From Streptomyces sudanensis (GTDB taxonomy: Bacteria > Actinomycetota > Actinomycetes > Streptomycetales > Streptomycetaceae): 38,320 bases of DNA. Location: contig NZ_CP095474.1 of the NCBI RefSeq assembly GCF_023614315.1, forward strand, positions 4,802,607 to 4,840,926, in the 5' to 3' direction. Shown in pieces: positions 19,696 to 38,196 of this stretch. Made by a program: the position numbers and the translations under genes. The notes beneath the pieces were generated by a model. It worked only from the letters and a program-made list of their open reading frames with translations. It was not told the origin of the DNA and did not search any database. Within the stretch, counting starts at the first letter, position 1, and every line of letters begins with the position of its first letter.

Positions 19696-20169
19696 GTGGA
19701 AGTACCCGCCGTGACGTCGATCACCATTGACAGGGCCGGTGCGGACGACATAGAAATCGTCACCGATCTTTTTCTCGGCTATCTGGACTTCTACAAGGCT
19801 CCGGCCTCCAGGGAGGCAGCCGGTTCTTTTATCGCGGAACGGTTGGCCAAGGCCGATTCGATGATTTTCATCGCCCGGGACGCGGACGGGACCGCCCTGG
19901 GTTTCACTCAGGTCTACCCGACCTTCGCGTCCGTCTCCATGGGGCGGGTGTGGATCCTCAACGACCTGTACGTCGTCCCGGACGCGAGGCGCCTCGGGGC
20001 CGGCCGTGCGCTCGTCCGGTTCGTCACCGACAGGGCCCGGGCCGAGGGGGTCGTCAGGGTCACCCTGGCCACGGCCGAGGACAACGTGTCCGCGCAGGCG
20101 CTCTACGAGGCCGAGGGCTTCACGACCGGTCACCCGGTACGTCACTACGTCAAGCGGACGCGTCAGTGA
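19696..20169 (+). CDS. GNAT-family N-acetyltransferase
   Basis: A 157-residue single-domain GNAT, first gene of the cluster. Motif order is standard: helices 1-2 (VTDLFLGYLDFY), the strand with WILNDLYVVPDARRLGAGRALVRF containing the acetyl-CoA pyrophosphate loop (RRLGAGRA), then TLATAEDNVSAQALYEAEGF. It probably acylates an amine in the pathway or on the product (tailoring or self-protection). The GTG at 19696 follows AGGGGGAGGG. A second in-frame GTG at 19516, with its own GGAGGG, would add a 60-residue low-complexity tail containing a CACC motif. It resembles the cluster's other GNAT (34505) in the LNDL(Y/F)V strand. Its stop is 43 bp before the next gene. Confidence 0.85.
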   Translation: MEVPAVTSITIDRAGADDIEIVTDLFLGYLDFYKAPASREAAGSFIAERLAKADSMIFIARDADGTALGFTQVYPTFASVSMGRVWILNDLYVVPDARRLGAGRALVRFVTDRARAEGVVRVTLATAEDNVSAQALYEAEGFTTGHPVRHYVKRTRQ

Positions 20170-20212
20170 ATCTCCCGAGATGAGCTGAGCCTCCACGCGG
20201 TTAGAGGCTTTC

Positions 20213-21073
20213 ATGCAGACGATCCTTGTCGTGGACCGGCTCGCCGAAGCGGCGGTTCCCTATCACGAGTGGTTCACCCCGTCCGACGGCCGGCTGGTCC
20301 TGTTCACCACTCGGCCGGCGGAGGCGTTCTCATCCGTCGAGACCGCGCGTTACCTCGAAATGCACCACTATTCGACGGAGGACGCGCTCACGCTTCTGGA
20401 GCGCGACGCGCTGCGACGCGCGGGGCAGCCCGACGTCACGGCCGTCGTCGCGCCGGCCCGAATGGATCTGCTGCTCGCGGCAGTGCTGCGTGAACGGCGG
20501 GATCTGCCCGGGCAGACGAGAAGAAGCGCCCTTCTGTTCAACGACGTCTGCGCCCTCCGGCACGAACTGGAAGCCGCGGGTCTCCCCACGGTGAACTGCT
20601 CGCCGGTGACGCAGATACTGGACGTCTTCGGGTTCGCCGCGGAGCACGGGTTTCCCGTCCGGGTCCGGCCACGAGGAGCCCGGCACGGTGCGACCGTGGA
20701 ACTCGGAAGCACCGGGGAGGTCGAGGCGTACGTCGCCGGCGGACTCACCGCGCGCAAGGAGCACCTGCCCGACCTCGCCGTCGAATCGGTTCCGCAAGGG
20801 CGCCGGATGGACCTGGCGGGCACGACCGGCGGGGGAATCCCCGTGACGACCGGCGGGGGAATCCCCGTGACGCCGCAGGGCGGTCCGGTCGCCGACGAGG
20901 AAGTGGCGGGGCTCGTCGCCGCCGCGCTCGACGTCCTGTCCGTTCCCGCCGGCCACCACTGGCAGGCGAAACTGATCCGGACTCCGGAGGGAGTCCTGAT
21001 CGACGAACTGACGGTGGGGCTCACGGCCGGTGATCCCGTTCCGGCCCCCCGAATACGAGAGGCACAGCCGTGA
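20213..21073 (+). CDS. Degenerate ATP-grasp-like protein
   Basis: A 286-residue ORF that follows the next gene's ATP-grasp fold but has lost key residues. Recognisable pieces are FGFAAEHGFPVRVRPRGARHG (the ligases have PLVVKPRNAAG; the ATP-binding lysine is now Arg), VESVPQGRRMDLAG (against VEAFVPGGMCHVDG) and WQAKLIRTPEGVLIDEL (against FHIEVFHTPDD; the first metal Glu is Ala). It ends soon after. Two in-frame 24-bp repeats encode TTGGGIPV twice. It may be non-catalytic (a partner subunit or scaffold) or decaying. It starts 43 bp after the GNAT and overlaps the next gene by GTGA, which argues that translation is still useful. Confidence 0.72.
   Translation: MQTILVVDRLAEAAVPYHEWFTPSDGRLVLFTTRPAEAFSSVETARYLEMHHYSTEDALTLLERDALRRAGQPDVTAVVAPARMDLLLAAVLRERRDLPGQTRRSALLFNDVCALRHELEAAGLPTVNCSPVTQILDVFGFAAEHGFPVRVRPRGARHGATVELGSTGEVEAYVAGGLTARKEHLPDLAVESVPQGRRMDLAGTTGGGIPVTTGGGIPVTPQGGPVADEEVAGLVAAALDVLSVPAGHHWQAKLIRTPEGVLIDELTVGLTAGDPVPAPRIREAQP
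20822..20869. repeat. Two in-frame 24-bp tandem repeats
   Basis: Identical units at 20822-20845 and 20846-20869 lie inside the degenerate ATP-grasp gene. Each contains the small palindrome GGGGAATCCCC and keeps the reading frame. Confidence 0.9.
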
Positions 21074-22326
21074 GCTTGCTCATCCTGCACCGCGGTTCCC
21101 TCCGTGCGAACCGCTATGCCGAGTGGCTCGCGGATTTCGGCGGAGACGTCGTCCTCCTGGCTTCGCAGGAGAAGCTGGACGCGGTGAAGGAGGAACTGCG
21201 GCCGACGGCCGACGGCTTCCTGCACGCCGAAGCGATAACCGGATACGACCTGAGCGGCCGGCTGGAGTCGCGGGCCCTGGAACTCGCCGAGAAGTACGAC
21301 GTCCAACACGTCTTCGCGAGCAACGAGTACGACCTGGAAAGAGCGGCGCTCCTCCGGGAGATCCTCCGGATTCCCGGGCAGGGAAGCGACAGCGCACAGG
21401 CGTTCCGCGACAAGGTCCTCATGAAGGAGGCCGCCCTCGCCGGCGGTGTGCCCGTCGCTCCCTACCGTACGGTCGAGTGCGCCGCCGACGTCCACGCCTT
21501 CGCCGCCGACCACGGCTTCCCGCTGGTCGTCAAACCGCGCAACGCCGCCGGGTCGGTGGGGACCACCGTCGTCCGCACCCCGGAGGAGCTCGACGAACTC
21601 GTCGCGCTGCGGATGACGGCGGACCAGGGCCGGCCCAACCTGCTCGTCGAGGCGTTCGTCCCCGGTGGGATGTGCCACGTCGACGGCCTGGTCCTCGACG
21701 GCGAGGTCGTCCTCGCCTGGCCGTCGCGGTACCTGGACGCACTGGTGTCCTTCCCGGTCGGCGGAATCCTCGCCGATGTCTCCCTCGATCCGGACGATCC
21801 GCTCGCCGCGCGCCTGCTGGCTCTCTGCGACCGGCTGATGAGCGCCATGCCGACGCCGCCGAACTGCGCCTTCCACATCGAGGTCTTCCACACCCCGGAC
21901 GATCGACTCGTGCTGTGCGAGGTCGCGAGCCGCACCGGTGGCGCCAAGATCAAGGAAACGATCGAGGTCATGTTCGGCGTGGACCTGACCGAGGCGTGGC
22001 TGCGGGCCGAAGTCGGGCTGGAACCGCCCCGCGCCCTGCGCGGCCCCCGGCGGCCGCGGCCCCGCACCATGGCCGGATCGCTGCTGATGCTGTCCCGTCC
22101 GGGGCTGGTCCGCGACGTGCCGCGGACCGCCGACTTCCCCTGGGCGGAGCGGTACGAACTCCTGGTGGAGCCGGGGCAGCGGCTCGACCCGGCCGCCTTC
22201 TGCGGCGACGTGATCGCCTCACTGGTCGTGTCCGCGCCCGACCGGCGGGAGTGCGAGCGCCGACTGGGCCTGGCCCGCCGGTGGTTCGAGGACGCCGCCG
22301 TGATCGATCCCCCGCCGCACGCCTGA
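21070..22326 (+). CDS. ATP-grasp ligase (pair A, first copy)
   Basis: A 418-residue ATP-grasp enzyme expected to join a carboxylate, activated as acyl-phosphate, to an amine. An N-terminal substrate-binding fold (1-105, with VFASNEYDLERAALLREIL) precedes FRDKVLMKEAALAGGVPVAPY, the ATP lysine in FPLVVKPRNAAGSVGT, LLVEAFVPGGMCHVDGLV, and the metal-binding glutamates in FHIEVF and LCEVASRTGGAK. The usual ExN is ExA-S here, as in several amino-acid ligase relatives. A C-terminal domain of about 110 residues follows. The GTG at 21070 overlaps the previous stop. Its closest relative in the window is the gene at 26713, matching in the FHxEVF-TPD and HVDG segments. Confidence 0.9.
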   Translation: MSLLILHRGSLRANRYAEWLADFGGDVVLLASQEKLDAVKEELRPTADGFLHAEAITGYDLSGRLESRALELAEKYDVQHVFASNEYDLERAALLREILRIPGQGSDSAQAFRDKVLMKEAALAGGVPVAPYRTVECAADVHAFAADHGFPLVVKPRNAAGSVGTTVVRTPEELDELVALRMTADQGRPNLLVEAFVPGGMCHVDGLVLDGEVVLAWPSRYLDALVSFPVGGILADVSLDPDDPLAARLLALCDRLMSAMPTPPNCAFHIEVFHTPDDRLVLCEVASRTGGAKIKETIEVMFGVDLTEAWLRAEVGLEPPRALRGPRRPRPRTMAGSLLMLSRPGLVRDVPRTADFPWAERYELLVEPGQRLDPAAFCGDVIASLVVSAPDRRECERRLGLARRWFEDAAVIDPPPHA

Positions 22327-22391
22327 CGACCCCGCCCGTCGCTCCGCCGGACGCGCAGCCGCCGCCCGCCCCCAGCCGAAAGGACCCTCCC

Positions 22392-23594
22392 TTGCCACGC
22401 GTGGCCGTCATCGGAGGCACCATCAACATCCTCCTCCGCGCCGCCGCTCTGGACGTGAGCGTCGTGCTGTTCCACAAGGAGGGCGCCTACGACCCGGAAT
22501 CCGTCAAGTACTGCACGGAACTGGTCCACGTCGACTTCGTCGACGACCCCGAAGCCCTGGTGGAACTGGTGCGGGCCCACCACGAGCGCCGGCCGTTCGA
22601 CCGGGTCATGTCGCTGACCGAGAACGGCCTGGTGCCGGCCGCCCGGCTCAACGAGATCCTCGGGCTGGGCGGCAACTCCCTGCGCACGGCCGAGCTGCTC
22701 AAGGACAAGGTGTCCATGCGCCGCCGTCTCGACGAGGAAGGCATAAGCCCCGTCGCCTACCGCGCCGTGCGCAGCCGGCAGGAGCTCGACGCGTTCCGGC
22801 AGCTGATCGGCGGTCCCGTCTTCGTCAAGCCGGTGAACGGCTCCGCCAGCGTGGCCGTGCAGCGCGTGGACACGTCCGCCGACGCGGCGTCGGCCTGGGC
22901 CCGCCTCACCGCGGCGGGGTACGACGAGGCCATAGCGGAGGAGTTCCTGGAGGGGCCGGAGTTCAGCGTCGACGCCTACTCGTGGCAGGGCCGGCACACC
23001 GTCATCGCCGTCACGCGCAAGCTGCTCGCCCCCAACTCCCTGGAGATCGGGCACTCGATGCCCGCCCAGCTCGAAGAGGACACGCGGTCGGAGATGACGC
23101 GCATGGTCCGCGCGATGCTCGACGCCGTCGGCCTCGTGGAGGGCCCGACCCACACCGAAGTACGCCTGACCCCGAAGGGCCCGCGCATCATCGAGTCCCA
23201 GAACCGGATCGGCGGCTCGCGGCTCTACGAGATGATGTCCCTCGCCTTCGGCATCGACATCATCCGCCTCGCCGTGGCCGTCCCGCTCGGCCTGGAACCG
23301 GCCCCGGAGAAGACCCCCGACACCCTGGCGGGCGCCGCCGTCCGCTACTTCACGCCGCCCCCCGGCGTGGTCACCGCGATCACCGGCACGGAGCACCTGC
23401 CCGACGACGGGACGCTGCGCCTGGCCCTGGGCGTCGCGGTCGGCGACACGGTCGCGGAGCAGCGCACCTCGATCGACCGCGACACCCTCGGCTGCTACGT
23501 CGTCTGCTCCGGTGCGGACGAGGCGGACGCCGTCGCGCGCTGCGAAAGGGCCCTGGACACCGTGACGATCACCACCCGGGCGGTGGCGCGGTGA
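22392..23594 (+). CDS. ATP-grasp ligase (pair B, first copy)
   Basis: A 400-residue ATP-grasp amino-acid or peptide ligase. The N-terminus MPRVAVIGGTINILLRAAAL is followed by SLTENGLVPAARLNEILGLG, LLKDKVSMRRRLDEEGI, the ATP lysine in GPVFVKPVNGSASVAV, AIAEEFLEGPEFSVDAY, and the metal ligands Glu (THTEVRLT) and Glu-x-x-Asn (IIESQNRIGGSR), all intact. The start is TTG at 22392 with AAAGGA about 8 nt upstream; this choice gives the same MPRVAVIGG start as its paralogue at 27979. A 65-bp gap separates it from the previous gene, and a GTGA overlap couples it to the mutase small subunit. Confidence 0.9.
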   Translation: MPRVAVIGGTINILLRAAALDVSVVLFHKEGAYDPESVKYCTELVHVDFVDDPEALVELVRAHHERRPFDRVMSLTENGLVPAARLNEILGLGGNSLRTAELLKDKVSMRRRLDEEGISPVAYRAVRSRQELDAFRQLIGGPVFVKPVNGSASVAVQRVDTSADAASAWARLTAAGYDEAIAEEFLEGPEFSVDAYSWQGRHTVIAVTRKLLAPNSLEIGHSMPAQLEEDTRSEMTRMVRAMLDAVGLVEGPTHTEVRLTPKGPRIIESQNRIGGSRLYEMMSLAFGIDIIRLAVAVPLGLEPAPEKTPDTLAGAAVRYFTPPPGVVTAITGTEHLPDDGTLRLALGVAVGDTVAEQRTSIDRDTLGCYVVCSGADEADAVARCERALDTVTITTRAVAR

Positions 23595-24067
23595 CCGTCC
23601 CGACGCCCTGCCGGGACCGGGCTCCCGTCGCGAGGAAGACGGTCCTCGTCTCCAGCGTGTCCTCCGACTCGCACACCTGGAACCTGGTCTACCTGCAACT
23701 GCTCCTCGAGGAGATGGGGCACGACGTCGTCAACATCGGGGCGTGCGTCCCGGACCGGTTATTCGTCGACGAGTGCCTGCGGCACCGGCCGGACCTCGCC
23801 GTCGTGAGCACCGTGAACGGCCACGGGTACGCCGACGGCAGACGGCTGATCCGGCGCGTCCGCGAGGAGACCGCCCTGGACCGCCTGCCGGTCGTCATCG
23901 GCGGCAAGCTCGGAATCCGGGGCGGCCTGCCGCAGGACGCCGGCCTGGAGCTCATCGGGGAGGGCTTCAGCGCCGTGTTCGACGACAGCGCCTCCCCCGA
24001 CGACTTCCGCCGTTACGTCGAGTCCGTTAGTACGCGGCGGCTTCCCGCGGGGAGCCGGCACCGATGA
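23591..24067 (+). CDS. Glutamate (methylaspartate) mutase, small cobalamin-binding subunit
   Basis: A 158-residue B12-binding subunit. With the large subunit it rearranges L-glutamate to L-threo-3-methylaspartate by adenosylcobalamin radical chemistry. The cobalamin motif appears as VSSDSHTWNLVYLQLLLEEMG (residues about 20-40), supplying the axial histidine, His28; the classic DxHxxG is DxHxxN here. Later come VVSTVNGHGYADG and PVVIGGKLGIRGG, as expected for the nucleotide-tail groove. GTG at 23591 overlaps the previous stop, and the stop overlaps the large-subunit ATG. Codon 57 is TTA (23759-23761), so 3-methylaspartate supply should depend on bldA. Confidence 0.92.
   Translation: MTVPTPCRDRAPVARKTVLVSSVSSDSHTWNLVYLQLLLEEMGHDVVNIGACVPDRLFVDECLRHRPDLAVVSTVNGHGYADGRRLIRRVREETALDRLPVVIGGKLGIRGGLPQDAGLELIGEGFSAVFDDSASPDDFRRYVESVSTRRLPAGSRHR
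23759..23761 (+). other. TTA codon in the mutase small-subunit gene
   Basis: In-frame TTA encodes the leucine in PDRLFVDE (codon 57). It is a candidate bldA checkpoint within the cluster. Confidence 0.9.
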
Positions 24068-25392
24068 CGACACGTCCGGACCCTCCGGCGCCGCTCGGCG
24101 CGTTCGGCGGCTTCATCGCCCGGGCCAGGGCGGAGAAACGACTCGTCGTGCAGCCCCGCATGGGCTTCCCGGACCCCCGCCGGATGCGGGAGGGCCTCGA
24201 CGCCGTGAAGGCCGCGCGGGCCCGCACCATCGGCACCATCACCGTGGACAGCTACACCCGCACCGGCGACCACGACGGGGCCCGCGAGGCCCTGGCCGCC
24301 GGCGCGGACCTCAACGGCTTCCCGCTGGTGGCCCACGGGCCCGCCGTGACCCGCGAGATGCTCCGGGGAGTGGAGTCGGCCGAGTTCCCCGTTCAGGTCC
24401 GGCACGGTGCGCCACTGCCGTACGACATCCTGCGGACCCTGGCGGAGGCCGGTCTCACGGCCACCGAGGGCGGGCCCGTGTCGTACTGCCTGCCCTACGG
24501 CCGGACGCCGCTGCGGGACTCCGTGCGCGCCTGGCGCGGCGCCTGCGAGATGCTGGCCTCCCACGACGGCAGAGCCGGCCCGGTGCACATGGAGAGCTTC
24601 GGCGGCTGCCTGCTCGGCCAGCTCTGCCCGCCCGGCCTGCTGGTCGCCGTCACCCTCCTGGAGGGCCTGTTCTTCCGGCAGGCCGGGATCCGCAGCGTCT
24701 CCCTGAGCTACGCCCAGCAGACGAACCCCCGGCAGGACACGGAGGCGGTGTCCGTCCTGCGGGAGCTGGCCGGCGAGTACCTCGCGGACACCGACTGGCA
24801 CGTCGTGATCTACACCTACATGGGCGTGTACCCCCGGACCCGTGCCGGTGCCGCGAACCTGCTCCGCCAGAGCGCCGGGCTGGCGGTGAGGACGGGAGCG
24901 GAACGGCTGATCGTCAAGACCGAGGTCGAGGCGTACCGCATTCCGACGATCGCGGAGAACGTCCGGGCACTGGAGATCGCCGAAGAGGCCGCGGCGGAGG
25001 AGCGGTCGCTGCTCGGCGCCTCGGCGCCGCCGGCCGCACCGCGGGACACGGGGATCGGGGCGGAGAGCCGCGCGCTCGTCGAGGCGGTCCTGAGCCTCGA
25101 CGCGGACATCGGCACGGCTCTGGTGAAGGCCTTCGAACAGGGCCTGCTCGACGTGCCGTACTGCCTCCATGCCGACAACCACGGCCGGGCCCGGAGCTAC
25201 ATCGACGAGGAGGGGCGGCTGGGCTGGGTCGACACGGGGCGGATGCCCATCACCGGCTCCGTCCGTACGGGCGCCCCCGAGCGGATCGGTGCCGACCACC
25301 TCCTGAACATGCTGTCGTTCGTCGAACGCCGCTTCGACGAGTCCGAACTGGCGAAGCGCGCTTCCCGGAGGCACGACGGCCTCGCGCCCTGA
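24064..25392 (+). CDS. Glutamate (methylaspartate) mutase, large catalytic subunit
   Basis: A 442-residue catalytic barrel subunit of glutamate mutase. Recognisable family stretches include RLVVQPRMGFPDPRRMREGL, GTITVDSYTRTGDH, ADLNGFPLVAHG, FPVQVRHGAPLPYDI, TEGGPVSYCLPYGRTPL, MESFGGCLLGQLCPPGLLVA and SYAQQTNPRQD. It provides the glutamate pocket and positions the radical; the small subunit supplies the cobalamin. The ATG overlaps the small-subunit stop, so the stoichiometric pair is co-translated. In secondary metabolism this enzyme makes 3-methylaspartate for direct incorporation (lipopeptides) or as a precursor of beta-amino acid starters. Here its neighbours are ATP-grasp ligases. Confidence 0.93.
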   Translation: MTTRPDPPAPLGAFGGFIARARAEKRLVVQPRMGFPDPRRMREGLDAVKAARARTIGTITVDSYTRTGDHDGAREALAAGADLNGFPLVAHGPAVTREMLRGVESAEFPVQVRHGAPLPYDILRTLAEAGLTATEGGPVSYCLPYGRTPLRDSVRAWRGACEMLASHDGRAGPVHMESFGGCLLGQLCPPGLLVAVTLLEGLFFRQAGIRSVSLSYAQQTNPRQDTEAVSVLRELAGEYLADTDWHVVIYTYMGVYPRTRAGAANLLRQSAGLAVRTGAERLIVKTEVEAYRIPTIAENVRALEIAEEAAAEERSLLGASAPPAAPRDTGIGAESRALVEAVLSLDADIGTALVKAFEQGLLDVPYCLHADNHGRARSYIDEEGRLGWVDTGRMPITGSVRTGAPERIGADHLLNMLSFVERRFDESELAKRASRRHDGLAP

Positions 25393-25435
25393 CACGCACG
25401 GCGAACCATCCAACGAGCAGACCCCGGGGGGGCGC

Positions 25436-26716
25436 ATGACCACGAGCACCGACGCACAGCCGGCCGGCACCACCGCACCGGGACCGCGGCACAACCGCGA
25501 CTTCCTGAAACTCTGGTCCGGGCAGGCCGTCTCCGACTTCGGCACGCAGATCACCCTGCTCGCCTTTCCGCTCATCGCGGTCTCCTCGCTCGACGCGACC
25601 TCCCTGCAGATGGGGTTCCTCAACGCGGCGGGACACGTGCCCATCGTCGTCCTCACCCTCCTCGCCGGGGCCTGGGTGGACCGGGTCAGACGCAGACCCG
25701 TCATGATCGCCACCAATGTCGCGCGGGCCGTCACGATCGCCGCCGTGCCCTGCCTCGCCTTCGCGGGCGTGCTGCGCATGGAGTACCTGTACGCCATCAC
25801 CCTCGTCCTGGGCTCGCTGGGCGTGCTGTTCGACGTGTGCTACCAGGCGTACCTGCCCACGATCGTCCCCCCGGAGCAACTGGTCGCCGCCAACGGCCGG
25901 CTGCAGGCGACGTACTCGGCCGCGCGGGTCGGCGGCCCCGGGGTCGGGGGCCTCCTGGTGCAGGCGCTCTCCGCCCCGGTCGCGCTCCTCGTCGACGCGC
26001 TCTCGTTCCTGGTCTCCGCCGTCGGCCTGTCCTCCATCGAGGCGGAGGAACGGGTGCGGTCCAAGGAGGAGCGCGCCGGACGCGTGTGGACCAGCATCAC
26101 GGAAGGGCTGCGCTACTCGTTCGGCCAGCCGCTCCTGCGCGCCGTCACCATCCAGGCCACCTGCTGGAATCTGTTCATCGCCTCGATCCAGGCCGTGTAC
26201 ATCATGTACGCGACACGTCAGCTCGGGCTCTCCCCGGCACTGATCGGGCTCACCTCGGCGGGCGGCGCGGTCGGTTCCCTCATCGCGTCCTTCACCACGC
26301 GGCGGACGGCCCTGCGGTTCGGCACCGGACGGACCATCGCCGGCGCCGTGGTGCTCGGCTGCTCCGCGCCGCTGCTGCTGCCCCTCGCCGGCGGACCCAC
26401 GGCGCTGGTCATCGCGGTGATCGCCCTGTCGTTCTTCCTCAGCGGCGTGGGCGCCACCACGTCGAACGTCCACGTCGTCGCCCTGCGCCAGACCATCACA
26501 CCCCAGGACCTCATCGGCCGGGCGACCGCCAGCCACCGCTTCTGCGCGGGGAGCGCCCTGCCCCTGGGAGCACTGCTGGGAGGCGTGATGGGCGAGGTCC
26601 TGGGCCTGCGCGAGGCCCTCTTCGTGAGCGCCGCCGCACTCTTCTGCACCCCTGTCCTGATCCTCACGTCCCCCATTCCGGGGCTGCGCGAACTCCCGAA
26701 AGGCCCGATGAAGTGA
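25436..26716 (+). CDS. MFS exporter
   Basis: A 426-residue major facilitator with about twelve transmembrane helices, of the EntS-like drug/siderophore exporter type. The N-terminal RHNRDFLKLWSGQAVSDFGTQ precedes helix 1. The loop-2/3 motif appears as GAWVDRVRRRPVMI, and the helix-5 region has LLVQALSAPVALLVDALSFL. A CGSLIA-like repeat marks the second half. It probably exports the cluster product and so provides self-protection. The ATG at 25436 follows a GGGGGG stretch, 43 bp after the mutase. The stop is overlapped by the GTG of the next ligase gene. Confidence 0.92.
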   Translation: MTTSTDAQPAGTTAPGPRHNRDFLKLWSGQAVSDFGTQITLLAFPLIAVSSLDATSLQMGFLNAAGHVPIVVLTLLAGAWVDRVRRRPVMIATNVARAVTIAAVPCLAFAGVLRMEYLYAITLVLGSLGVLFDVCYQAYLPTIVPPEQLVAANGRLQATYSAARVGGPGVGGLLVQALSAPVALLVDALSFLVSAVGLSSIEAEERVRSKEERAGRVWTSITEGLRYSFGQPLLRAVTIQATCWNLFIASIQAVYIMYATRQLGLSPALIGLTSAGGAVGSLIASFTTRRTALRFGTGRTIAGAVVLGCSAPLLLPLAGGPTALVIAVIALSFFLSGVGATTSNVHVVALRQTITPQDLIGRATASHRFCAGSALPLGALLGGVMGEVLGLREALFVSAAALFCTPVLILTSPIPGLRELPKGPMK

Positions 26717-27942: not shown

Positions 27943-27978
27943 CCGGCCCAGCAGACGTCACGGAAACGAGGAGGAAGA

Positions 27979-29223: not shown

Positions 29224-29437
29224 TATCCAGTTCTTCAAAGATTTTTCCGTTTCCGGGGCCGCCGCACGGAAAGGGCGTCATACTGTTTCACGCCGGGGCC
29301 GGTTGCCTCTCGATTTCCGGGTGAGCCTTGTCGCCTCCCGTGAAATGAACGGGGGTTGACTCGGGGAAGTGGTGGTCGGCAAGCTTGATAAAGCGGAGAA
29401 AACGAAGCGCCGCAGGGAAATGAAGGGGGGAACCGGG
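29224..29437. other. Intra-cluster intergenic region, possible internal promoter
   Basis: The only sizeable gap in the left half of the cluster (214 bp). It is AT-richer than its surroundings (29224-29255) and carries a TTGACT -35-like hexamer at 29356-29361. No well-spaced -10 follows (AAGCTTGATAAA lies 20 nt on), so a second promoter is possible but weakly supported. Confidence 0.3.
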
Positions 29438-29995: not shown

Positions 29996-31317
29996 GCGAC
30001 CGGCGCTCCGTACTGCTGGTCATCGGCGCCGGCACCCGGAAGGACCGTGACAGCCGGCCGTATCGGGAGCGCCTGCCGGCCGGCGCGGCCCGGGAGTACC
30101 CGCCGTGGTTGCTGGAGACGGACGAACCCATCCGGCAGGCGCCCTGCGCGGCCGGCAGCGGCATCGTTTCCGAACGGACCGCCGAGGCGCTCGTCGCCGC
30201 TGCCCGGGAGGTCGCCGGGCGGCACGACGTCATCGGAGCGCTGTGCCCGGACGAGGCGCTGCTGCCGCCCGCCGCCCGCGTCGCGGCGGATCCGGGGCCG
30301 CCGGGCGCGAGCGTGGAAGCGGTGCGGGCCTGCCGGGACGAGGAGCCGGGCCGGCGGCCGCTCACGGAAGCGGACCTGCCGCAGCCGCGTCGCACCACGG
30401 TCGAGTCCGCGGACGGCCCGCGCGCGGTCGCCGGGGAGTACGGATACCCCGTCGCCCTCAAGCCCCCCGGCCCGGAAGCGAGTTCGGGCGTGATCGAGGC
30501 GGAGGGCCCGGACCGGGCGGACACCGCGTCAGCCGTCGCGGTCGCCGCCGACCACCCGGACGTGGAGCGGTACCCCGGCACGGTGGCCGGGGAGCTCCCC
30601 GGCGGCCCGGAGACCGGTGTCGGCGGGTCCGTGGCGGACGGCAGGCACGAGCCGTACGCCGTGGCCCGCGAGAGGGGCGGCTCGCCGCCGCGCTCCGTGG
30701 AGACCGGGCACGTGGTCGGCGCGGACGCCCCCGCCCTGACCGACCCGCTGATACGCGGCCTCCCGGACATCCCCGCCCTGACCGACCCGCTGGCCCGCGG
30801 CCTCCCGGAGCGCACGCACAAGGCCCTCGGCTTCGGCCACGGCATGACGCACGCCGAGGCGAAGCCCACGTCCCGCGGCCCCGTCGTCGAGAGCAACGGC
30901 CGGCCGGGCGGCGGCCCGATCCCGCGGCCCGGCCGGCCCGCCGCCGGGGTGGACCTCGGCCGGGCGGCGGCCCGGGTGGCGGCAGGTGTCCGGCCGCCGG
31001 TGCCGCCGGCCTCCGCGGACGCGCCGCACGGCGGGCCGCGCACCGTCGGCATCCGGCTCCGCGACCCCACCGGGGACCTCGCCGTCACCGGCATCGAACC
31101 GCCCCGCCCGGAGGACCACCCCGGCCTGATCGAGGCCGTGCCGCTCGTCGCGGTCGGCGCCGAACCGCGCCGCCCACCCGCCGGCCACGTGTCCCGTTCC
31201 GCCCACCCCACCGCCGAGGGCGCCGACACCGGGGAGCGCTCCGCGCGCCTCGGCGCCCCGGGGAGCGCCGTCACCGTGCACGGCAGACCTCCCACCGGCG
31301 GCGCACCGGCGATCTGA
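29992..31317 (+). CDS. Strongly eroded ATP-grasp-like ORF
   Basis: A 441-codon open frame whose skeleton is ATP-grasp but whose conserved residues are scrambled. It has YGYPVALKPPGPEASSGVI (the ATP lysine is still present), VAGELPGGPETGVGGSVADG, and GFGHGMTHAEAKPTSRGPVV followed by ESNGRPGGGPIPRP, where active relatives have HAE.K.TP.GPRL.EVNARLGGG.IPRL. Many hydrophobic core positions are replaced by Pro, Gly, Arg or Ala, consistent with relaxed selection or a pseudo-ligase. A 42-bp direct repeat (30733-30816) sits before the late motif. ATGA overlap with DUF3291 and the open frame over 1.3 kb suggest it is still translated. Whether it works is unclear. Confidence 0.6.
   Translation: MSDRRSVLLVIGAGTRKDRDSRPYRERLPAGAAREYPPWLLETDEPIRQAPCAAGSGIVSERTAEALVAAAREVAGRHDVIGALCPDEALLPPAARVAADPGPPGASVEAVRACRDEEPGRRPLTEADLPQPRRTTVESADGPRAVAGEYGYPVALKPPGPEASSGVIEAEGPDRADTASAVAVAADHPDVERYPGTVAGELPGGPETGVGGSVADGRHEPYAVARERGGSPPRSVETGHVVGADAPALTDPLIRGLPDIPALTDPLARGLPERTHKALGFGHGMTHAEAKPTSRGPVVESNGRPGGGPIPRPGRPAAGVDLGRAAARVAAGVRPPVPPASADAPHGGPRTVGIRLRDPTGDLAVTGIEPPRPEDHPGLIEAVPLVAVGAEPRRPPAGHVSRSAHPTAEGADTGERSARLGAPGSAVTVHGRPPTGGAPAI
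30733..30816. repeat. Two in-frame 42-bp tandem repeats
   Basis: Units 30733-30774 and 30775-30816 encode ALTDPLIRGLPDIP and ALTDPLARGLPERT. They are an internal duplication inside the eroded ATP-grasp ORF that keeps the frame. Confidence 0.9.
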
Positions 31318-31373
31318 CGCCCTCAGAACCGTCCCACCAGTCCCCTTTCCCCTACGTCAACGGTGGTGTCCAC

Positions 31374-33365
31374 ATGATCACGCGCGCCTTCGACAGGTCA
31401 GCCATGAGCTGGTCCTACGAAATGCACCTGCAGCCCATGCTGTCCGCGGCCGACATCAAGGGACTGCCCTTCGGGTCCGTCTTCGGCAGCGTTCCTGCCC
31501 ACAGCGTCTCCAAGCGCCACGCCCACCAGGACGGCGAGATGTTCATCGTCCTCTCGGGCCGGGCGGTCGTCGTCCTCGGCGAGGAGGAACGCGAACTCGG
31601 ACCCGGCGGGGTCGTGTACCTCTCGCCCTTCGGCTTCCACGAGATCCGCAACGAGTCCGACGAGCCGTTCGACATAGTCTCCGTCTACTGGGAGGACATC
31701 CCCTCCGCCGTGGAGGCCCTGGCGCAGATCCCGCCGCGCAGTCTCCTCGCCGAGCGGTCCCTGGTCTTCTGCCCGCCGCCCACCCCGAACGGCGGCCTGC
31801 ACCTCGGGCACCTCGCCGGCCCGTACGTCCGCGCCGACATGCTGGTGCGGGGGCTGCGCGGCATGGGCAAGGAGGCCCGCTACGTGACCGGCACGGACGA
31901 CCACCAGTCGTACGTGGCGGCCGCCGCGCGCCTCGCCTCCGCCGACCCCGCCACCGTGGCGAGGACCGAGGGCGACGCCATCGTGGCGACGCTGCGGGCC
32001 GCCGGGGTGGGATGCGACAGGCTCACCCGGCCGGCCACGACGGACGGGCACGCCGACCGCGTCAGGGAGCTCTTCGCCCGGGTGGCCGCGTCCCCCACCG
32101 TCGTCGAGGAGGAGCGGGAGACCGCGTACTGCGCCACCTGCGACCTGTCCCTGCACCAGGCCTTCGCCCGCGGACGGTGCGCCCACTGCTCGGCCGCCAG
32201 CGACGGGGAGATCTGCGAGGCCTGCGGGCGCCCCAACGAAGCGCGCGAGCTGATCGCCGTCGAATGCCGGATCTGCGGCACGCCCGCGGGCACGCGGCCG
32301 GAGAAGGCCCTGTGGCTGGACACGGCGGCCCACGCCGACGAGCTGCGCGAGTACCTGACGCAGGTCGACGCGAGCCCCGACCTGCGCGCCCTGGTGGAGA
32401 ACCTGCTGGACTCGCCCGAGGGCCTGGCCCCCTACCGGCTGACGCGCACCAGCGACTGGGGCGTCGGCTGGGGCGAGGAGGCGGGACAGGCCGTCGACCC
32501 GTGGGTGGACCTCGCCCTGACGTACCTCACCGCGGCCCGGGCGGAGACCGACGCCTCCGGCCCGGCGGAGATCTCGCTCTTCCTCGGGTACGACAACAGC
32601 TACTACTACGCCGTGCTGCTGCCCGTACTGGCCTTCGCGGGAGGCCTGCGCGACCTGCTGCCCTCCTCGTTCGTCACGAACAAGTTCCTGCACCTCGGCG
32701 ACGAGAAGTTCTCCACCAGCCGCGGTCACGCGGTGTGGGCCGACGACGCCCTGGCGGCGGCGGGCCCGGACGCCGTGCGCCTGGCGCTGCTGCGCAACGC
32801 CCCGGAGGGCCGGGTCACCCGCATCTCCGCACAGGCCGCCGACCGGCTGGACGACGACCCGTTCCTCCACCAGGTCCACGAATGGCTCGCCGGATTCGCG
32901 GAGCTGAGGGAGGAGTTCGGGGGCAAGGTGCCCGGCACCGGGGCCTGGACGTCCGCCCACCGCGAGTTCTACCGCTACCTCAACTCCGCCACCCAGCAGC
33001 TGGACGCCCTGCTGGTCCCGGCGTCCTTCAGCGCCCGCCGCTACGTCGCCCTGCTCGAATCCCTCGTCGGCCACGTCGTGGAGTTCCGCGCCACCGAGGA
33101 GCCGCTGCGCCGGATCCCCTCGATGGCCGAGGAGGCGCGGACCAGCCTGGCCCTGGAGTACCTGGCCGCCAAGGTGTTCGCGGGTCTGACCGCCCCGGTG
33201 ACGCCGGACCTCGCCCAGCGCGTCTGGAGCTGGCTCGGCCTGCCCGGCGAGCCCCGGCGCGAGCAGGAGTGGTCCTTCCTCCCCACCGGCACCGTGTGCG
33301 GTGACGCCGACTTCCGCCGCGACGCCCCCCGCCAGGAGCGCCCCGTCCCCGAAGAGGCGCGGTGA
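31374..33365 (+). CDS. Hydrazine synthetase: cupin-methionyl-tRNA-synthetase fusion
   Basis: A 663-residue two-domain enzyme. Residues about 30-110 are a cupin with metal ligands His49, His51, Glu55 and His89. From about residue 130 a class-I MetRS-like domain follows, with HLGH (143-146) and KFSTS (445-449) ATP-binding signatures and a zinc knuckle near 253-300 (CATC, CAHC, CEAC, CRIC). In the s56-p1 (Spb40) and triacsin (Tri28) pathways this fusion adenylates an amino acid, esterifies it to N6-hydroxylysine, and the cupin drives N-N bond formation. Here the N-hydroxylase and FAD oxidase are neighbours, supporting that role; the amino-acid partner is unknown. There is no anticodon-binding specialisation, so it is not housekeeping MetRS. 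The start ATG 31374 has only a weak GGTGGTG site; ATG 31404 is an alternative. Confidence 0.93.
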   Translation: MITRAFDRSAMSWSYEMHLQPMLSAADIKGLPFGSVFGSVPAHSVSKRHAHQDGEMFIVLSGRAVVVLGEEERELGPGGVVYLSPFGFHEIRNESDEPFDIVSVYWEDIPSAVEALAQIPPRSLLAERSLVFCPPPTPNGGLHLGHLAGPYVRADMLVRGLRGMGKEARYVTGTDDHQSYVAAAARLASADPATVARTEGDAIVATLRAAGVGCDRLTRPATTDGHADRVRELFARVAASPTVVEEERETAYCATCDLSLHQAFARGRCAHCSAASDGEICEACGRPNEARELIAVECRICGTPAGTRPEKALWLDTAAHADELREYLTQVDASPDLRALVENLLDSPEGLAPYRLTRTSDWGVGWGEEAGQAVDPWVDLALTYLTAARAETDASGPAEISLFLGYDNSYYYAVLLPVLAFAGGLRDLLPSSFVTNKFLHLGDEKFSTSRGHAVWADDALAAAGPDAVRLALLRNAPEGRVTRISAQAADRLDDDPFLHQVHEWLAGFAELREEFGGKVPGTGAWTSAHREFYRYLNSATQQLDALLVPASFSARRYVALLESLVGHVVEFRATEEPLRRIPSMAEEARTSLALEYLAAKVFAGLTAPVTPDLAQRVWSWLGLPGEPRREQEWSFLPTGTVCGDADFRRDAPRQERPVPEEAR

Positions 33366-34477
33366 CCCGTCCGACGGCGAACGCCCCCGCGCTCCGCTCC
33401 GACCCGGAACCGCCCCGCACCGCCGACGTCGTGGTGGTGGGCGCGGGGATCACCGGCGCTTCGATCGCCCACCACCTGGCGCTGCTCGGCGTCCGGGTCG
33501 CCGTGGTGGAGCAGGCGCCACGACCCGCGGCCGGCGCCACCGGCCCGTCCGGCGGGATGGTGCGGGCGTACGACACCGACCCCGTCGTCGCCGACCTGGC
33601 GGCGGCGAGCCTCGCCGTCTACCGCGACCCCCGCCGGTGGTCGGCCGGACGGTCCCCGCTGCGCACCGTGGGCGCCGTCACGGTGGCCGACCCGGCCTGC
33701 GAACAAGTCCTGCGCCGGGCGGCCGAGGACCTCGCGGCGGCCTGCCCGGACACCTCCGCCCACGTGGTCGCGGACCGCGACGAGGCCATGGGGGTCCGCC
33801 TCGACGGAGGCATCGCCCTCGTGGAGCCCGACGCGGGGTGGGTCCCTCCCGCGGACGTCACCGAGGACTGGCTGCGACGGGCCCTGGCCGACGGCGCCTC
33901 GCTGCACTGCGGGGTCCGGGTGCTCGGGGTGGAGGCCGAAGGAGGGCGGCCGGTCGTCCGCACGACGGCCGGGGACGTCCGCGCCGGGACGGTCATCGCG
34001 GCCACCGGGCCCTGGACGGCCCGCCCGCCGCGGGGACTGGCCCCGCGTTCGGCCGTGCGTTCCCGGTCCATCCAGGTCGGCATCGTCCGCAGGCCCGCGG
34101 ACACGCCCCCGCACGCCACCTTCATCGACCTGCGCACAGGGGTCTACGGCAAGCCGGTCGACGCGGCCCACTCCCTCGTCGGCATGCCGCACCTGGTGTG
34201 GGACGCCCCGTTCGACGCGGCCCCGGACCCGGCCCACGCCCTGGCCACCACGCGCGCCGCCCACCCCTACCTGCCGTGGGCCCGGGACGCCGAGCAGGTG
34301 TCCGTCGTCCGCGCGGCCGACGGCTACGGCGACGGCTCGCACCTGCTCACGCGAACGGAATCACCCCACGTGTGGTCGGTGCGGGGCTGGAACGGCGGCG
34401 GAGTGAAGACCGCCCCGGAAGCCGGCCGCCGCATCGCCGAACTCCACGTCAGCGACGAGCTGACCACCCGCATCTGA
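33362..34477 (+). CDS. FAD-dependent oxidase (D-amino acid/glycine oxidase-like) of the hydrazine cassette
   Basis: A 371-residue DAO-superfamily flavoenzyme. The FAD motif VVVVGAGITGASIAHHLALLG is at the N-terminus, ATGPSGGMVR is the typical loop contacting the isoalloxazine, and the C-terminal half ends with VRGWNGGGVKTAP. In the s56-p1 pathway the equivalent (Spb39) oxidises the C-N bond of the lysine-hydrazine intermediate, releasing the hydrazino acid plus 2-aminoadipate semialdehyde. The GTG at 33362 overlaps the hydrazine synthetase stop (GTGA), so the two are made together. The same role is inferred here. Confidence 0.85.
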   Translation: MTRPTANAPALRSDPEPPRTADVVVVGAGITGASIAHHLALLGVRVAVVEQAPRPAAGATGPSGGMVRAYDTDPVVADLAAASLAVYRDPRRWSAGRSPLRTVGAVTVADPACEQVLRRAAEDLAAACPDTSAHVVADRDEAMGVRLDGGIALVEPDAGWVPPADVTEDWLRRALADGASLHCGVRVLGVEAEGGRPVVRTTAGDVRAGTVIAATGPWTARPPRGLAPRSAVRSRSIQVGIVRRPADTPPHATFIDLRTGVYGKPVDAAHSLVGMPHLVWDAPFDAAPDPAHALATTRAAHPYLPWARDAEQVSVVRAADGYGDGSHLLTRTESPHVWSVRGWNGGGVKTAPEAGRRIAELHVSDELTTRI

Positions 34478-34504
34478 CCGCCCCCGACCGACAGCGAGAC
34501 AACC

Positions 34505-35014
34505 GTGCACGACAACGCACCCACGCCGTACCGGATCGACCGGGTCGACCCGTCGACCTTCGACGACCTGCTTCCCCTGATCGCCGACTACCAGCGGTTC
34601 TACGGCTGCGAGCCCGACGAGTCGCGCAATCGCCGCTTCTTCGGCGACATGGTCGGCGACGACACCCACGGCCTGCAGCTCCTCGCCCGCCACGGCGACC
34701 GGGCCGCCGGCTTCGCCACCCTCTACTGGACCCGGGTGTCGACCCGGGCGACGACGGTGGCCCTGCTCAACGACCTGTTCGTCCACCCGGACCACCGCGG
34801 TGGGCGCCGGGACGGCCTCGGGACCCTGCTGCTGCGGGCCGCCGCCCGGGAGGCCGCCGCGCGCGGCTACCGCAACCTCGTCTGGCAGACGGCGCCCGAC
34901 AACACGGCGGCACAGGCGCTCTACGACCGTTTCCTCGCGGACGCCTCCGTCCCCGGTTCGACATCCGGCTGGATCGAGTACTCGTGTCCGCTTCCGTACG
35001 AGGGGGAGAGATGA
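34505..35014 (+). CDS. GNAT-family acyltransferase of the hydrazine cassette
   Basis: A 169-residue GNAT: FDDLLPLIADYQRFYGCEPD (acceptor side), TTVALLNDLFVHPDHRGGRR with the CoA loop continuing DGLGTLLLRAA, then WQTAPDNTAAQALYDRF. In triacsin biosynthesis a GNAT acylates hydrazinoacetate, so this enzyme may acylate and protect the free hydrazine; it could equally modify the final product. The start is GTG at 34505 with a weak GCGAGAC site, 27 bp after the oxidase. Its stop overlaps the hydroxylase ATG. It is a relative of the cluster's first gene. Confidence 0.85.
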   Translation: MHDNAPTPYRIDRVDPSTFDDLLPLIADYQRFYGCEPDESRNRRFFGDMVGDDTHGLQLLARHGDRAAGFATLYWTRVSTRATTVALLNDLFVHPDHRGGRRDGLGTLLLRAAAREAAARGYRNLVWQTAPDNTAAQALYDRFLADASVPGSTSGWIEYSCPLPYEGER

Positions 35015-36312
35015 GCCACGTCCACGACGTCATCGGCATAGGCTTCGGGCCCGCGAACCTGGCCCTGGCCATCGCGCTCCAGGAGGAGGACAGCGGCCTC
35101 GACGCGCACTTCCTGGAATCCCGGCCCGGACCGTCGTGGCAGAGCGCCATGATGCTGCCCGGTTCCGACATCCAGAACCACCCCGTACGCGACCTGGTGT
35201 CGCTGCGTAACCCGCGCAGCCGCTACAGCTTCATCAACTACCTGTTCGAACAGGGCCGGCTGCTCGACCACCTGAACCTGCCGGTGGAGTTCCCGCTGCG
35301 CAAGGAGTACGCGCAGTACGTCTGCTGGGCCGCCGGCCACTTCGCCGACCGCGTCGACTACGGCACCTCCGTGTCCGCCGTCACGGTGGAGCAGGACGGC
35401 GGGGGAGAGCCCTGCTACGCGGTGACCACGTCCACGGGCGCCCGGCACCGGGCCCGCTCCCTCGTCGTCGGCACCGGCCGCAGCCCCTACGTGCCCGCGC
35501 CGTTCGACACGGTCGACTCGCCCCGCGTCTTCCACCTCACCCGGTACCTGCCGGCACTGGAGACGCTGGCCGAACGCGGCCTCGTCGGCGGTGACGGCCC
35601 CGCCCCGAAGGACATCGCCGTGATCGGCGGCAGCCAGAGCGCCGTCGAGCTGACCCTGGACCTCTCCCGGCGCTTCCCCGACGCCCGGGTGACCACCTAC
35701 GTCCGGCCGTTCGGCCTGCGGGAGAAGGACACGAGCCCCTTCAGCGAAGAGGGCTACTTCCCGGAGTTCACCGACTACTACTACCGCGTCCCGCGCGAGC
35801 GGAAGGACGTCCTCGACTCCTACATGCGGCTGACGAACTACTCGGCGGCCGACGGGGACGTGCTGCGCGAGCTCTACACCCTCATCTACGAGCAGCGCCT
35901 CGACGGCGACCAGCGGGTGTTCGTACGGGGCTCCCGCCAGGTCCGCCGGGTCGAAGCCGACGAGGCCGGGGTCGGCCTGACGATCGAGGAACTGAACACC
36001 GGCGCGCACGAACAGGCCCGCGCCGACATGGTCGTCCTCGCGACCGGCTTCCGGGACCTCGGCCCGGCCGCCCACCAGGAGCCGGTGCCGCCGCTGCTGA
36101 GCCGTCTCACCGACCGCTTCGCCTTCGACGAGCACGGCTACCTCAAGGTCACCTACGACTACGAGGTCGAGACCGGCGCGGCGGGCACACCCCCGCTGTT
36201 CCTCAACGGCCTGTGCGAGTCGTCCCACGGCATCGGCGACTCCGGATCGTTCAGCCTGCTGTCGCTGAGGGCCAAGGCCATCACCGACGGACTGCGGAAA
36301 CACCTGCTGTGA
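35011..36312 (+). CDS. L-lysine/L-ornithine N-hydroxylase (flavin NMO)
   Basis: A 433-residue class-B N-hydroxylating monooxygenase using FAD, NADPH and O2. The FAD motif is GIGFGPANLALAIAL (residues about 8-22), the substrate/FAD loop is SSWQSAMMLPGSDIQNHPVRDL-like, NADPH binding is VIGGSQSAVELTLDL, and the ATGF motif occurs at about residue 343. Chain length and motifs fit IucD/PvdA/SidA and Spb38. Given the hydrazine synthetase and oxidase neighbours, lysine N6-hydroxylation is the likely reaction, although ornithine cannot be excluded. AGGGGGAGAG precedes the ATG, which overlaps the GNAT stop. Confidence 0.92.
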   Translation: MSHVHDVIGIGFGPANLALAIALQEEDSGLDAHFLESRPGPSWQSAMMLPGSDIQNHPVRDLVSLRNPRSRYSFINYLFEQGRLLDHLNLPVEFPLRKEYAQYVCWAAGHFADRVDYGTSVSAVTVEQDGGGEPCYAVTTSTGARHRARSLVVGTGRSPYVPAPFDTVDSPRVFHLTRYLPALETLAERGLVGGDGPAPKDIAVIGGSQSAVELTLDLSRRFPDARVTTYVRPFGLREKDTSPFSEEGYFPEFTDYYYRVPRERKDVLDSYMRLTNYSAADGDVLRELYTLIYEQRLDGDQRVFVRGSRQVRRVEADEAGVGLTIEELNTGAHEQARADMVVLATGFRDLGPAAHQEPVPPLLSRLTDRFAFDEHGYLKVTYDYEVETGAAGTPPLFLNGLCESSHGIGDSGSFSLLSLRAKAITDGLRKHLL

Positions 36313-36945
36313 CGGACCGCGGGGCGGGCCCGGCCGCTCCGGCGCGCGGGTCCGGCCGGGCCGCCCGGGCGGCCGGGGAAGGGCCATGACCGCGGCACGG
36401 ACCGCCGCACCCGGGCATGGCGGCACCGGCCGGGAGGTGGCGGCCGCCGCCGCCCGCGGCGCGCCCGGAGGGGGAGGGCCGTCATGCCGCCGGCGGTCGC
36501 GGCACCGGCCGGCGAGGACGACCGGCGCGCCCGGGCGTTCCGCCGGCGCCCGGCCGGAGCGGTCCGCGGCTGCGGAGGCCACGCCCTGAACGCGTTCGGC
36601 ACGGCCCTCGCGGTCCGGCCGGCCGGGGTCCTCGTCCCGACCGCCGGGGGGACGCTCCCGGCACCGGTGGCCGCCGCGTACGCCGGTGAGACCGCCCCGC
36701 CCGGTGCGGGCGCCCCGTACCGGTCGCTCCCCGGTCCGTGCCGGGCGGCGGGCATGTCCCCCGGCCCCGCCGCCGGCGTCCTCTCCCACGGCCGGGACAC
36801 GCGACCGCCCTGGCTGCCCGGCACCGCGGCCCTCGTGACCACGGCCGGCCGGTCCGCACCACTTCGCCCCGCGTGCCCTCGCCGCGCGCTTCGCCGGCGG
36901 ATCCCGCCGACTCGCCCCACCCGTTCCTTCCACCAAGGAGGCACC
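36313..36945. other. 633-bp interval with possible decayed coding sequence
   Basis: No intact gene is recognised. A plus-strand frame from 36484 is open into the aminotransferase gene, and its peptide (for example FGTALAVRPAGVLVPTAGGT) has no family I know. The aminotransferase has its own strong AAGGAGG site just before 36946, so a real N-terminal extension is unlikely. Base composition resembles the eroded ORF at 29992, so a relic gene is possible. Confidence 0.5.
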
Positions 36946-38196
36946 ATGACCCAGGCCGCTCTCGAGTCCGAGGTCCGCAGCTACTGCCGCGGCTGGCCCA
37001 CCACCTTCACCCACGGCCGCGGCAGCCGGCTGTACGACGGCGACGGCCGCGCGTACCTGGACTTCTTCGCCGGCGCCGGCGCGCTGAACTACGGCCACAA
37101 CCACCCCGTCCTGAAACAGGCGCTGCTGTCCTACCTCGACGGTGACGGGGTCACGCACAGCCTCGACATGGCCACCGCCGCCAAGGCCGACTTCCTGGAG
37201 GCCTTCGGCACGCACGTGCTGGCACCGCGCAACCTCGACTACCGGGTGCAGTTCTGCGGCCCCACCGGCACCAACAGCGTGGAGGCCGCCCTGAAGCTCG
37301 CGCGGAAGGTGACGGGGCGCCCCACCGTCGTCGCTTTCACCGGCGCCTTCCACGGCATGTCCCTCGGGTCGCTGGCCGTCACGGGGAACGCGGCCAAACG
37401 CGCCGGAGCGGGTGTCCCCCTCGGGCACACCTTCCGCGTGCCGTACGACGGCTTCGGCGGTCCCGGCGCCTTCGGGCTCGACCTGCTGGAGAGCACGCTC
37501 GACGACAGCAGCAGCGGCGTGGAGCTGCCGGCCGCCGTCATCGTCGAGACCGTGCAGGGCGAGGGCGGCGTGAACGTCGCCCGGGCCGAGTGGCTCGTCC
37601 GCCTCGCCCAGATGTGCCGCGAGCGCGGGGTCCTGCTGATCGTGGACGACGTGCAGATGGGCTGCGGCCGCACCGGGCCCTTCTTCAGCTTCGAGCAGAC
37701 GGGTGTCGAACCCGACATCGTCTGCCTGTCGAAGTCGATCAGCGGCTACGGACTGCCGATGGCCCTGACCCTGTTCAGGCCCGAACTGGACGTGTGGAAT
37801 CCCGGCGAGCACAACGGCACGTTCCGCGGCTTCAACCCCGCGTTCGTCACGGCCGCGGCGACAGTGCGGGAGTTCTGGTCGGACGGCGCGCTGGAGAAGG
37901 GGACCGCCGACAAGGCCGCCTTCGTGGAGGGCCGGCTCGACCAGCTCGCCGACCGCTTCTCCGGACTGGGAGCCCGCACCCGGGGACGAGGACTCGTCAG
38001 GGGCCTGGAGTTCGACGACACCTCCCTCGCCGGCCGGGTCGGCGCCGAGGCCTTCAGCCGGGGCCTGCTGGTGGAGACCTCGGGCTCCGCGGACCAGGTG
38101 GTCAAGTTGCTGCCGCCGCTGACCACGACGGAAGGGGAGCTCGCCGAGGGCCTGGACGTCCTCGCCGAGGCCGTGGCGGCCGCCGCGCGGACCTGA
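36946..38196 (+). CDS. Class-III PLP aminotransferase, EctB-like (diaminobutyrate/2-oxoglutarate type)
   Basis: A 416-residue fold-type I aminotransferase. Features are GRGSRLYDGDGRAYLDFFAGAGALNYGHN, the PLP-phosphate region CGPTGTNSVEAALKLAR, FTGAFHGMSLGSLAVTGN, ETVQGEGGVNVA, VDDVQMGCGRTG, the Schiff-base lysine in LSKSISGYG (about Lys263), and GTFRGFNPAF. EctB enzymes convert aspartate semialdehyde plus glutamate to 2,4-diaminobutyrate. Ectoine genes do not follow within the window. Here it could supply diaminobutyrate, or re-aminate the 2-aminoadipate semialdehyde released by the hydrazine cassette back to lysine; both are inference. AAGGAGG sits 4 nt before the ATG. Confidence 0.9.
   Translation: MTQAALESEVRSYCRGWPTTFTHGRGSRLYDGDGRAYLDFFAGAGALNYGHNHPVLKQALLSYLDGDGVTHSLDMATAAKADFLEAFGTHVLAPRNLDYRVQFCGPTGTNSVEAALKLARKVTGRPTVVAFTGAFHGMSLGSLAVTGNAAKRAGAGVPLGHTFRVPYDGFGGPGAFGLDLLESTLDDSSSGVELPAAVIVETVQGEGGVNVARAEWLVRLAQMCRERGVLLIVDDVQMGCGRTGPFFSFEQTGVEPDIVCLSKSISGYGLPMALTLFRPELDVWNPGEHNGTFRGFNPAFVTAAATVREFWSDGALEKGTADKAAFVEGRLDQLADRFSGLGARTRGRGLVRGLEFDDTSLAGRVGAEAFSRGLLVETSGSADQVVKLLPPLTTTEGELAEGLDVLAEAVAAAART

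Follow-up and report, generated by a model that had tools for sequence, protein, structure and literature searches.

A hydrazine synthetase cassette beside a mutase and ATP-grasp gene set in Streptomyces sudanensis, with a possible role at a distant locus

Gene neighbourhoods that combine a methionyl-tRNA synthetase (MtRS) paralogue with a cupin, a flavin N-monooxygenase (NMO) and ATP-grasp ligases were described in 2010 (Aravind et al., PMC2922099); the accessible part of that paper also places a GNAT and a diaminobutyrate transaminase beside the synthetase, and the word "mutase" does not occur in it. The hydrazinoacetate modules of triacsin, azaserine and s56-p1 likewise comprise an NMO, a cupin-MetRS synthetase, a DAO-type oxidase and a GNAT, to which azs adds an ATP-grasp protein and an MFS transporter; in the portions of the reports consulted, they use lysine and glycine and stand in a polyketide synthase (PKS) or nonribosomal peptide synthetase (NRPS) context (PMC11705231, PMC10445470, PMC13061610). 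The actinopyridazinone pathway shares the NMO, cupin-MetRS and DAO proteins (Apy9/Apy10/Apy11) and hydroxylates diaminobutyrate, and neither a mutase nor paired ATP-grasp proteins are reported for it in the sections available (PMC11705231). Here we analyze a 38,320-nucleotide stretch (the window; C1:4802607-4840926) of the 5.26 Mb, one-contig genome of Streptomyces sudanensis, in which a cassette of this kind follows a gene set encoding a methylaspartate-mutase-like enzyme, two pairs of ATP-grasp ligases and an exporter.

The reading we favour is that these are two abutting units, a cassette for a hydrazino amino acid and a mutase/ligase set, and that the cassette may feed, in trans, a distant adenylation-domain locus lacking a working synthetase and oxidase of its own. 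We give this reading a probability of about 0.5.

The hydrazine cassette and its relatives

All genes at positions 19696-38196 of the window lie on the plus strand, in an order verified by open reading frame calls, Pfam and NCBIfam. The left half (19696-29223) runs GNAT1, a shortened ATP-grasp gene, ATP-grasp pair 1, mutase small and large subunits, MFS exporter and ATP-grasp pair 2; the right half (29438-38196) runs DUF3291, a degenerate ATP-grasp gene, cupin-MetRS, DAO, GNAT2, NMO and EctB (Table 1). Seven junctions are 4-bp overlaps (20213-21073/21070, 23594/23591, 24067/24064, 26716/26713, 29995/29992, 33365/33362 and 35014/35011). The gene inventory of a first-pass annotation, which had been made from the letters of the window, is confirmed by these results, and its statement that NRPS and PKS modules are absent from the run holds.

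The sequence places the cassette in the hydrazine synthetase kind. Its synthetase combines a cupin and a MetRS-like domain in a single protein, with an NMO and a DAO as neighbours, and H49, H51, E55, H89, HLGH and KFSTS are invariant across nine sequences of the clade. We take H49, H51, E55 and H89 to be zinc ligands, and formation of an N-N bond is predicted.

Across 295 genomes of the genus the synthetase has ten relatives at 64-77%, and the next stands at 36%. A scan of contigs gave 20 loci, seven of which had already been seen, so that 23 distinct actinobacterial loci outside the window were available for comparison; one of these is without its upstream flank (L161) and one is a short contig (L159). 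A search of the 120 nearest genomes for close relatives returned two others over the 1e-150 threshold, at 76% and 53%; the neighbourhood of the latter (G400) is not among the loci read. In the stretches read around the cassette a mutase occurs in 0 of the 23 distinct loci, the upstream side being missing in L161, and none occurs around 20 more distant synthetase loci (30-37% to the window enzyme). EctB stands beside the cassette in 18 of the 21 loci with downstream sequence covered (in two pieces in L177), and in only one of the 20 distant loci, seven of which have a weak ATP-grasp match. We did not find the two halves conserved together, and the cassette very probably is separable from the left half. 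The first-pass annotation had joined both halves in a single pathway, and had itself held that separate conservation would speak against this; for the right half that is what was found, since the cassette is conserved without mutase matches in 23 of 23 loci. Separate conservation of the left half was not seen at the 40 loci of the genus and 14 of the class whose ATP-grasp or mutase neighbourhoods were read.

Most relatives share one architecture: 16 of the 22 loci with upstream coverage have adenylation domains, a hydrolase, a PCP-rhodanese protein and a flavin monooxygenase. In eight of 20 named loci a single ATP-grasp match of 32-35% is found downstream of EctB, so the window is not alone in having an ATP-grasp protein near the cassette. 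A second architecture, in Nocardiopsis listeri (L170), N. xinjiangensis (L174) and a genome of the same genus as the window (G089), is a compact operon of NMO, ATP-grasp ligase, MFS, DUF3291, cupin-MetRS, DAO and GNAT. It differs from the window in that its ligase and MFS genes are intact, a permease gene is present, and EctB and the mutase are absent. This operon (5563-14716 in L170) contains no NRPS or PKS. It is probably a minimal hydrazine peptide pathway, to judge by its genes, in which the ligase would make the peptide.

The compact operon also accounts for two pieces of the window. The gene at 29992-31317 aligns over its full length to the ligases of the three operons, although much of the conserved ATP-grasp sequence is gone. 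The gap between NMO and EctB (36313-36945) is not empty: with the exporters of the three operons as queries, a remnant at 36553-36828 is matched at E values of 9e-18 to 1e-15. By these alignments the cassette once carried its own ATP-grasp ligase and MFS exporter, both now decayed. At sites where the three relatives agree, counted over codon positions 1 and 2, the decayed ligase shows 94/214 AT-to-GC changes and 28/314 in reverse, against 17/332 and 21/496 in the synthetase and 27/265 and 21/304 in the NMO. The GC contents of the decayed pieces are 0.80 and 0.83, versus 0.66-0.69 in intact homologues. Pseudogenes usually drift toward AT, the opposite of what is seen here. Three pieces, 29992-31317, 36553-36828 and L190 13928-14966, share a GC content of 79-83%, higher than in their intact homologues, and most of their changes run from AT to GC. 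We considered and rejected 29992-31317 as a paralogue of the left-half genes, because it aligns to the ligase that the cassette itself carries in three relatives, and a tRNA-Arg (gcg) called by ARAGORN at 36424-36515, which overlaps the high-GC exporter remnant and is probably spurious. The two ATP-grasp genes that had been annotated as degenerate both lack a Pfam match; the one at 29992-31317 is the decayed ligase of the cassette.

The NMO had been annotated as a lysine N-hydroxylase, which is doubtful. Diaminobutyrate is probably its substrate, because EctB, a diaminobutyrate transaminase, travels with the cassette and the actinopyridazinone pathway, to which we liken the cassette by description, hydroxylates diaminobutyrate (PMC11705231). 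A lysine-hydroxylating NMO, as in s56-p1, triacsin and azaserine, with EctB serving another step, seems to us rather unlikely. The nearest solved relative of the NMO is indeed the lysine hydroxylase MbtG (1.1e-69), with the ornithine enzyme PvdA close behind (1.5e-65), and the L170, L174 and G089 cassettes lack EctB, though each of these genomes has one EctB over the cut-off elsewhere. The contrast in EctB frequency between close and distant synthetase loci speaks against it.

The substrates and reactions that we infer for the cassette would then run as follows. EctB would make diaminobutyrate, and the NMO would hydroxylate its side-chain amine. The cupin-MetRS protein would adenylate a second amino acid and couple it with the hydroxylamine, forming the N-N bond. 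Cleavage of this conjugate by the DAO would yield a hydrazino amino acid, which GNAT2 would acylate. By the Apy10 route the product would be 2-amino-4-hydrazinylbutanoate, an aza-ornithine in which nitrogen replaces one carbon.

The mutase and ATP-grasp set

The left half encodes a two-subunit mutase whose large subunit matches glutamate mutase epsilon at 7.7e-39. Neither subunit reaches the NCBIfam cut-offs for equivalogs (50.9 of 110 bits, and 41.6 of 135.8 and 179.7 of 390.1 bits for TIGR01501 and TIGR01503). The small subunit has D-S-H-T-W-N in place of the B12 motif D-x-H-x-x-G, and the final N of D-x-H-x-W-N is common to all homologues in the genus with a readable motif. The large subunit keeps the positions of the substrate site (arginines, E, Y, Y, K and E, by alignment and motifs), residues that presumably bind the substrate. 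The earlier call of a glutamate mutase pair is borne out by Pfam and not by the equivalog scores, and the family is common in the genus: the large subunit occurs in 142 of 392 genus genomes, at no more than 62% identity to the window copy. Among 384 class genomes, 16 have it at 1e-110. A second large subunit in the same genome (C1:2083930-2085183) is 61% to the window copy.

In its small and large subunit pair the enzyme resembles the glutamate (methylaspartate) mutases of actinobacterial secondary metabolism (47-64% and 53-62% to genus and class homologues), and it differs in adjoining two ATP-grasp pairs. These pairs comprise two types: the genes starting at 22401 and 27979 (type II) are 46% alike and pass both ATP-grasp and LAL_C2, and those starting at 21070 and 26713 (type I) are 30% alike, with ATP-grasp matches and LAL_C2 below its cut-off. 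The 22401-23594 gene has an alternative TTG start at 22392, and its nearest solved structure is the L-amino acid ligase BL00235 (3vot, 5.5e-29). We propose that the mutase would turn glutamate into 3-methylaspartate, that the two ATP-grasp pairs would build a small peptide containing it, and that the left MFS protein would export the peptide.

Only parts of this set recur elsewhere. One of 20 genus mutase loci has an ATP-grasp match (33%, on the opposite strand). Of the 14 class mutase loci, two place a single ATP-grasp gene immediately upstream in the same orientation, not far from adenylation domains. These two, from genomes of another family, run ATP-grasp then mutase small and large subunits (L231 9415-12311 and L232 9373-11963). 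Around 20 genus ATP-grasp loci, at least two ATP-grasp matches are present in 12 and a homologue of the left MFS in four, and a mutase in none. In three loci (L129, L133 and L137) both ATP-grasp types alternate and are followed by a homologue of the window MFS, in other contexts. No copy of the whole left unit was present in the 40 genus and 14 class loci; within these loci the set is not found as a unit, though mutase plus ATP-grasp has precedent.

Table 1. Features of the window at 19696-38196, with the matches that identify them.
Feature	Position	Strand	Evidence
GNAT acetyltransferase 1 (GNAT1)	19696-20169	+	Pfam 1.5e-16
Degenerate, shortened ATP-grasp gene	20213-21073	+	No Pfam match at 0.01; 30% to 21070-22326
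ATP-grasp ligase type I, pair 1	21070-22326	+	Pfam ATP-grasp family
ATP-grasp ligase type II, pair 1	22401-23594	+	LAL_C2 3.2e-14
Methylaspartate-mutase-like small subunit, B12-binding	23591-24067	+	Pfam B12-binding 1.2e-12
Methylaspartate-mutase-like large subunit	24064-25392	+	Met_asp_mut_E 6.7e-93
MFS exporter, left half	25436-26716	+	MFS_3 4e-33
ATP-grasp ligase type I, pair 2	26713-27942	+	Pfam ATP-grasp family
ATP-grasp ligase type II, pair 2	27979-29223	+	Pfam ATP-grasp family; 46% to 22401-23594
Gap between halves	29224-29437	+	214 bp, GC 0.589
DUF3291 protein	29438-29995	+	Pfam 4.3e-40
Decayed ATP-grasp ligase of cassette	29992-31317	+	No Pfam match at 0.01; 43% to intact homologue in G089
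Cupin-MetRS hydrazine synthetase (predicted)	31374-33365	+	tRNA-synt_1g 9.4e-54, Cupin_2 1.9e-13
FAD-dependent DAO-type oxidase	33362-34477	+	DAO 1.5e-41
GNAT acyltransferase 2 (GNAT2)	34505-35014	+	Pfam 1.7e-15
Flavin N-monooxygenase (NMO), Lys/Orn/diamine family	35011-36312	+	Lys_Orn_oxgnase 2.4e-90
Remnant of cassette MFS exporter	36553-36828	+	Matches MFS of the three compact operons (48-50%, 80-91 aa)
EctB-like diaminobutyrate transaminase	36946-38196	+	Aminotran_3 7.3e-71; TIGR02407 617.3 vs cut-off 552.2 bits

A second locus and the relation between the halves

A second hydrazine-type cluster, of the adenylation-domain type, lies about 1.3 Mb from the window (C1:3529500-3560000; L190 and L243) and also has the PCP-rhodanese protein and flavin monooxygenase. 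When 15 of its genes were compared with S. cyaneus, 11 reached at least the median identity that ten relatives show. Its synthetase is reduced to residues 1-46 and 544-641, and no DAO match was found at the locus. Its GNAT2 is decayed, at 54% and of raised GC. EamA is without a match there, only two of the ten relatives having one. A PCP-rhodanese search of the 392 genus genomes, in which the synthetase was not used, found this type of locus in 11, and the 10 others keep the synthetase; the contig of one of them (G102) does not cover the DAO. When all 18 candidates of the Pfam MetRS family in the genome were scored, only the canonical MetRS and the window synthetase exceeded 100 bits, and among all 70 DAO candidates scored the window DAO was the only match at 1e-5. 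No intact cupin-MetRS or DAO was found in the genome outside the window. Supply of a hydrazine building block from the cassette to the distant locus would fit these losses, and we regard it as about evenly balanced. We rejected the idea that the window cassette was recently copied from the second locus: in the synthetase tree the window falls outside the 16-row group in which the adenylation-domain type lies (a fork of 17 at 97/98), and the second-locus NMO groups with the adenylation type, the window NMO being in another supported group.

Several points weigh against two units with supply in trans. The losses at the second locus are seen in one genome, and the case for supply is one of sequence evidence. 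The second locus retains its own NMO and EctB, both of which such supply would duplicate and which argue against its depending wholly on the window. Most relatives of the second-locus type lack GNAT2 (the eight best matches have a median of 24%), so its decay there means little, and the informative losses are those of the synthetase and the DAO. The ligase and exporter lost from the right half are, moreover, kinds that the left half has, which is equally compatible with a takeover.

That takeover is the strongest alternative, though we think it, and any common pathway for the two halves, unlikely. Here the four left ATP-grasp ligases and MFS protein would have replaced those of the cassette, so that one hybrid pathway would make a pseudopeptide of the hydrazino amino acid and 3-methylaspartate. 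Such a hybrid would explain the loss of ligase and exporter. The halves are adjacent on the same strand, the remaining right-half genes are not decayed, and replacement is conceivable since the left MFS and the exporter of the cassette are different proteins (no blastp match at 1e-3). It sits poorly with the absence of a mutase from the close and distant synthetase loci, with the second locus as another user of hydrazine, and with the 214-bp gap of 59% GC at the junction. This gap is a possible start of a separate transcription unit; a pattern scan found no sigma-70-like site in it, the promoter and terminator scan gave 0 promoter-like and 6 terminator-like patterns (4.4 expected), and the fold of the junction (z 0.66) is uninformative.

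Less likely still, the cassette could be a shared N-N-bond factory, passing one diaminobutyrate-derived aza-ornithine to both the left unit and the second locus, so that two metabolites would depend on one synthetase. A right half that is a relic being lost, ligase and exporter first, is improbable: two of its eight genes are decayed, and the likeness of its DAO, GNAT2, NMO and EctB to relatives runs 8-10 points below that among the relatives themselves, but the synthetase stands at 0.76 to relatives versus 0.78 among them, with motifs intact and no GC-ward drift.

We retain the reading of two abutting units with supply in trans. The combination had been annotated as apparently undescribed; cupin-MetRS and NMO with ATP-grasp proteins have been known since 2010, by the accessible part of that account (PMC2922099), and the mutase beside them is the new element. 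A literature search, with most subscription papers outside its scope, returned no paper in which a cupin-MetRS synthetase is joined with a glutamate mutase. As far as that search shows, the mutase beside the cassette, the decayed ligase and exporter, and the corresponding losses at two loci within a single genome are new.

If this reading is true, a hydrazine pathway is divided between two distant loci of the same genome, and mining for single clusters would misread both. The window would also record the swapping of ligases and exporters in such cassettes, and it offers a testable guess, diaminobutyrate and not lysine, for a synthetase clade found in at least 23 other actinobacterial loci.

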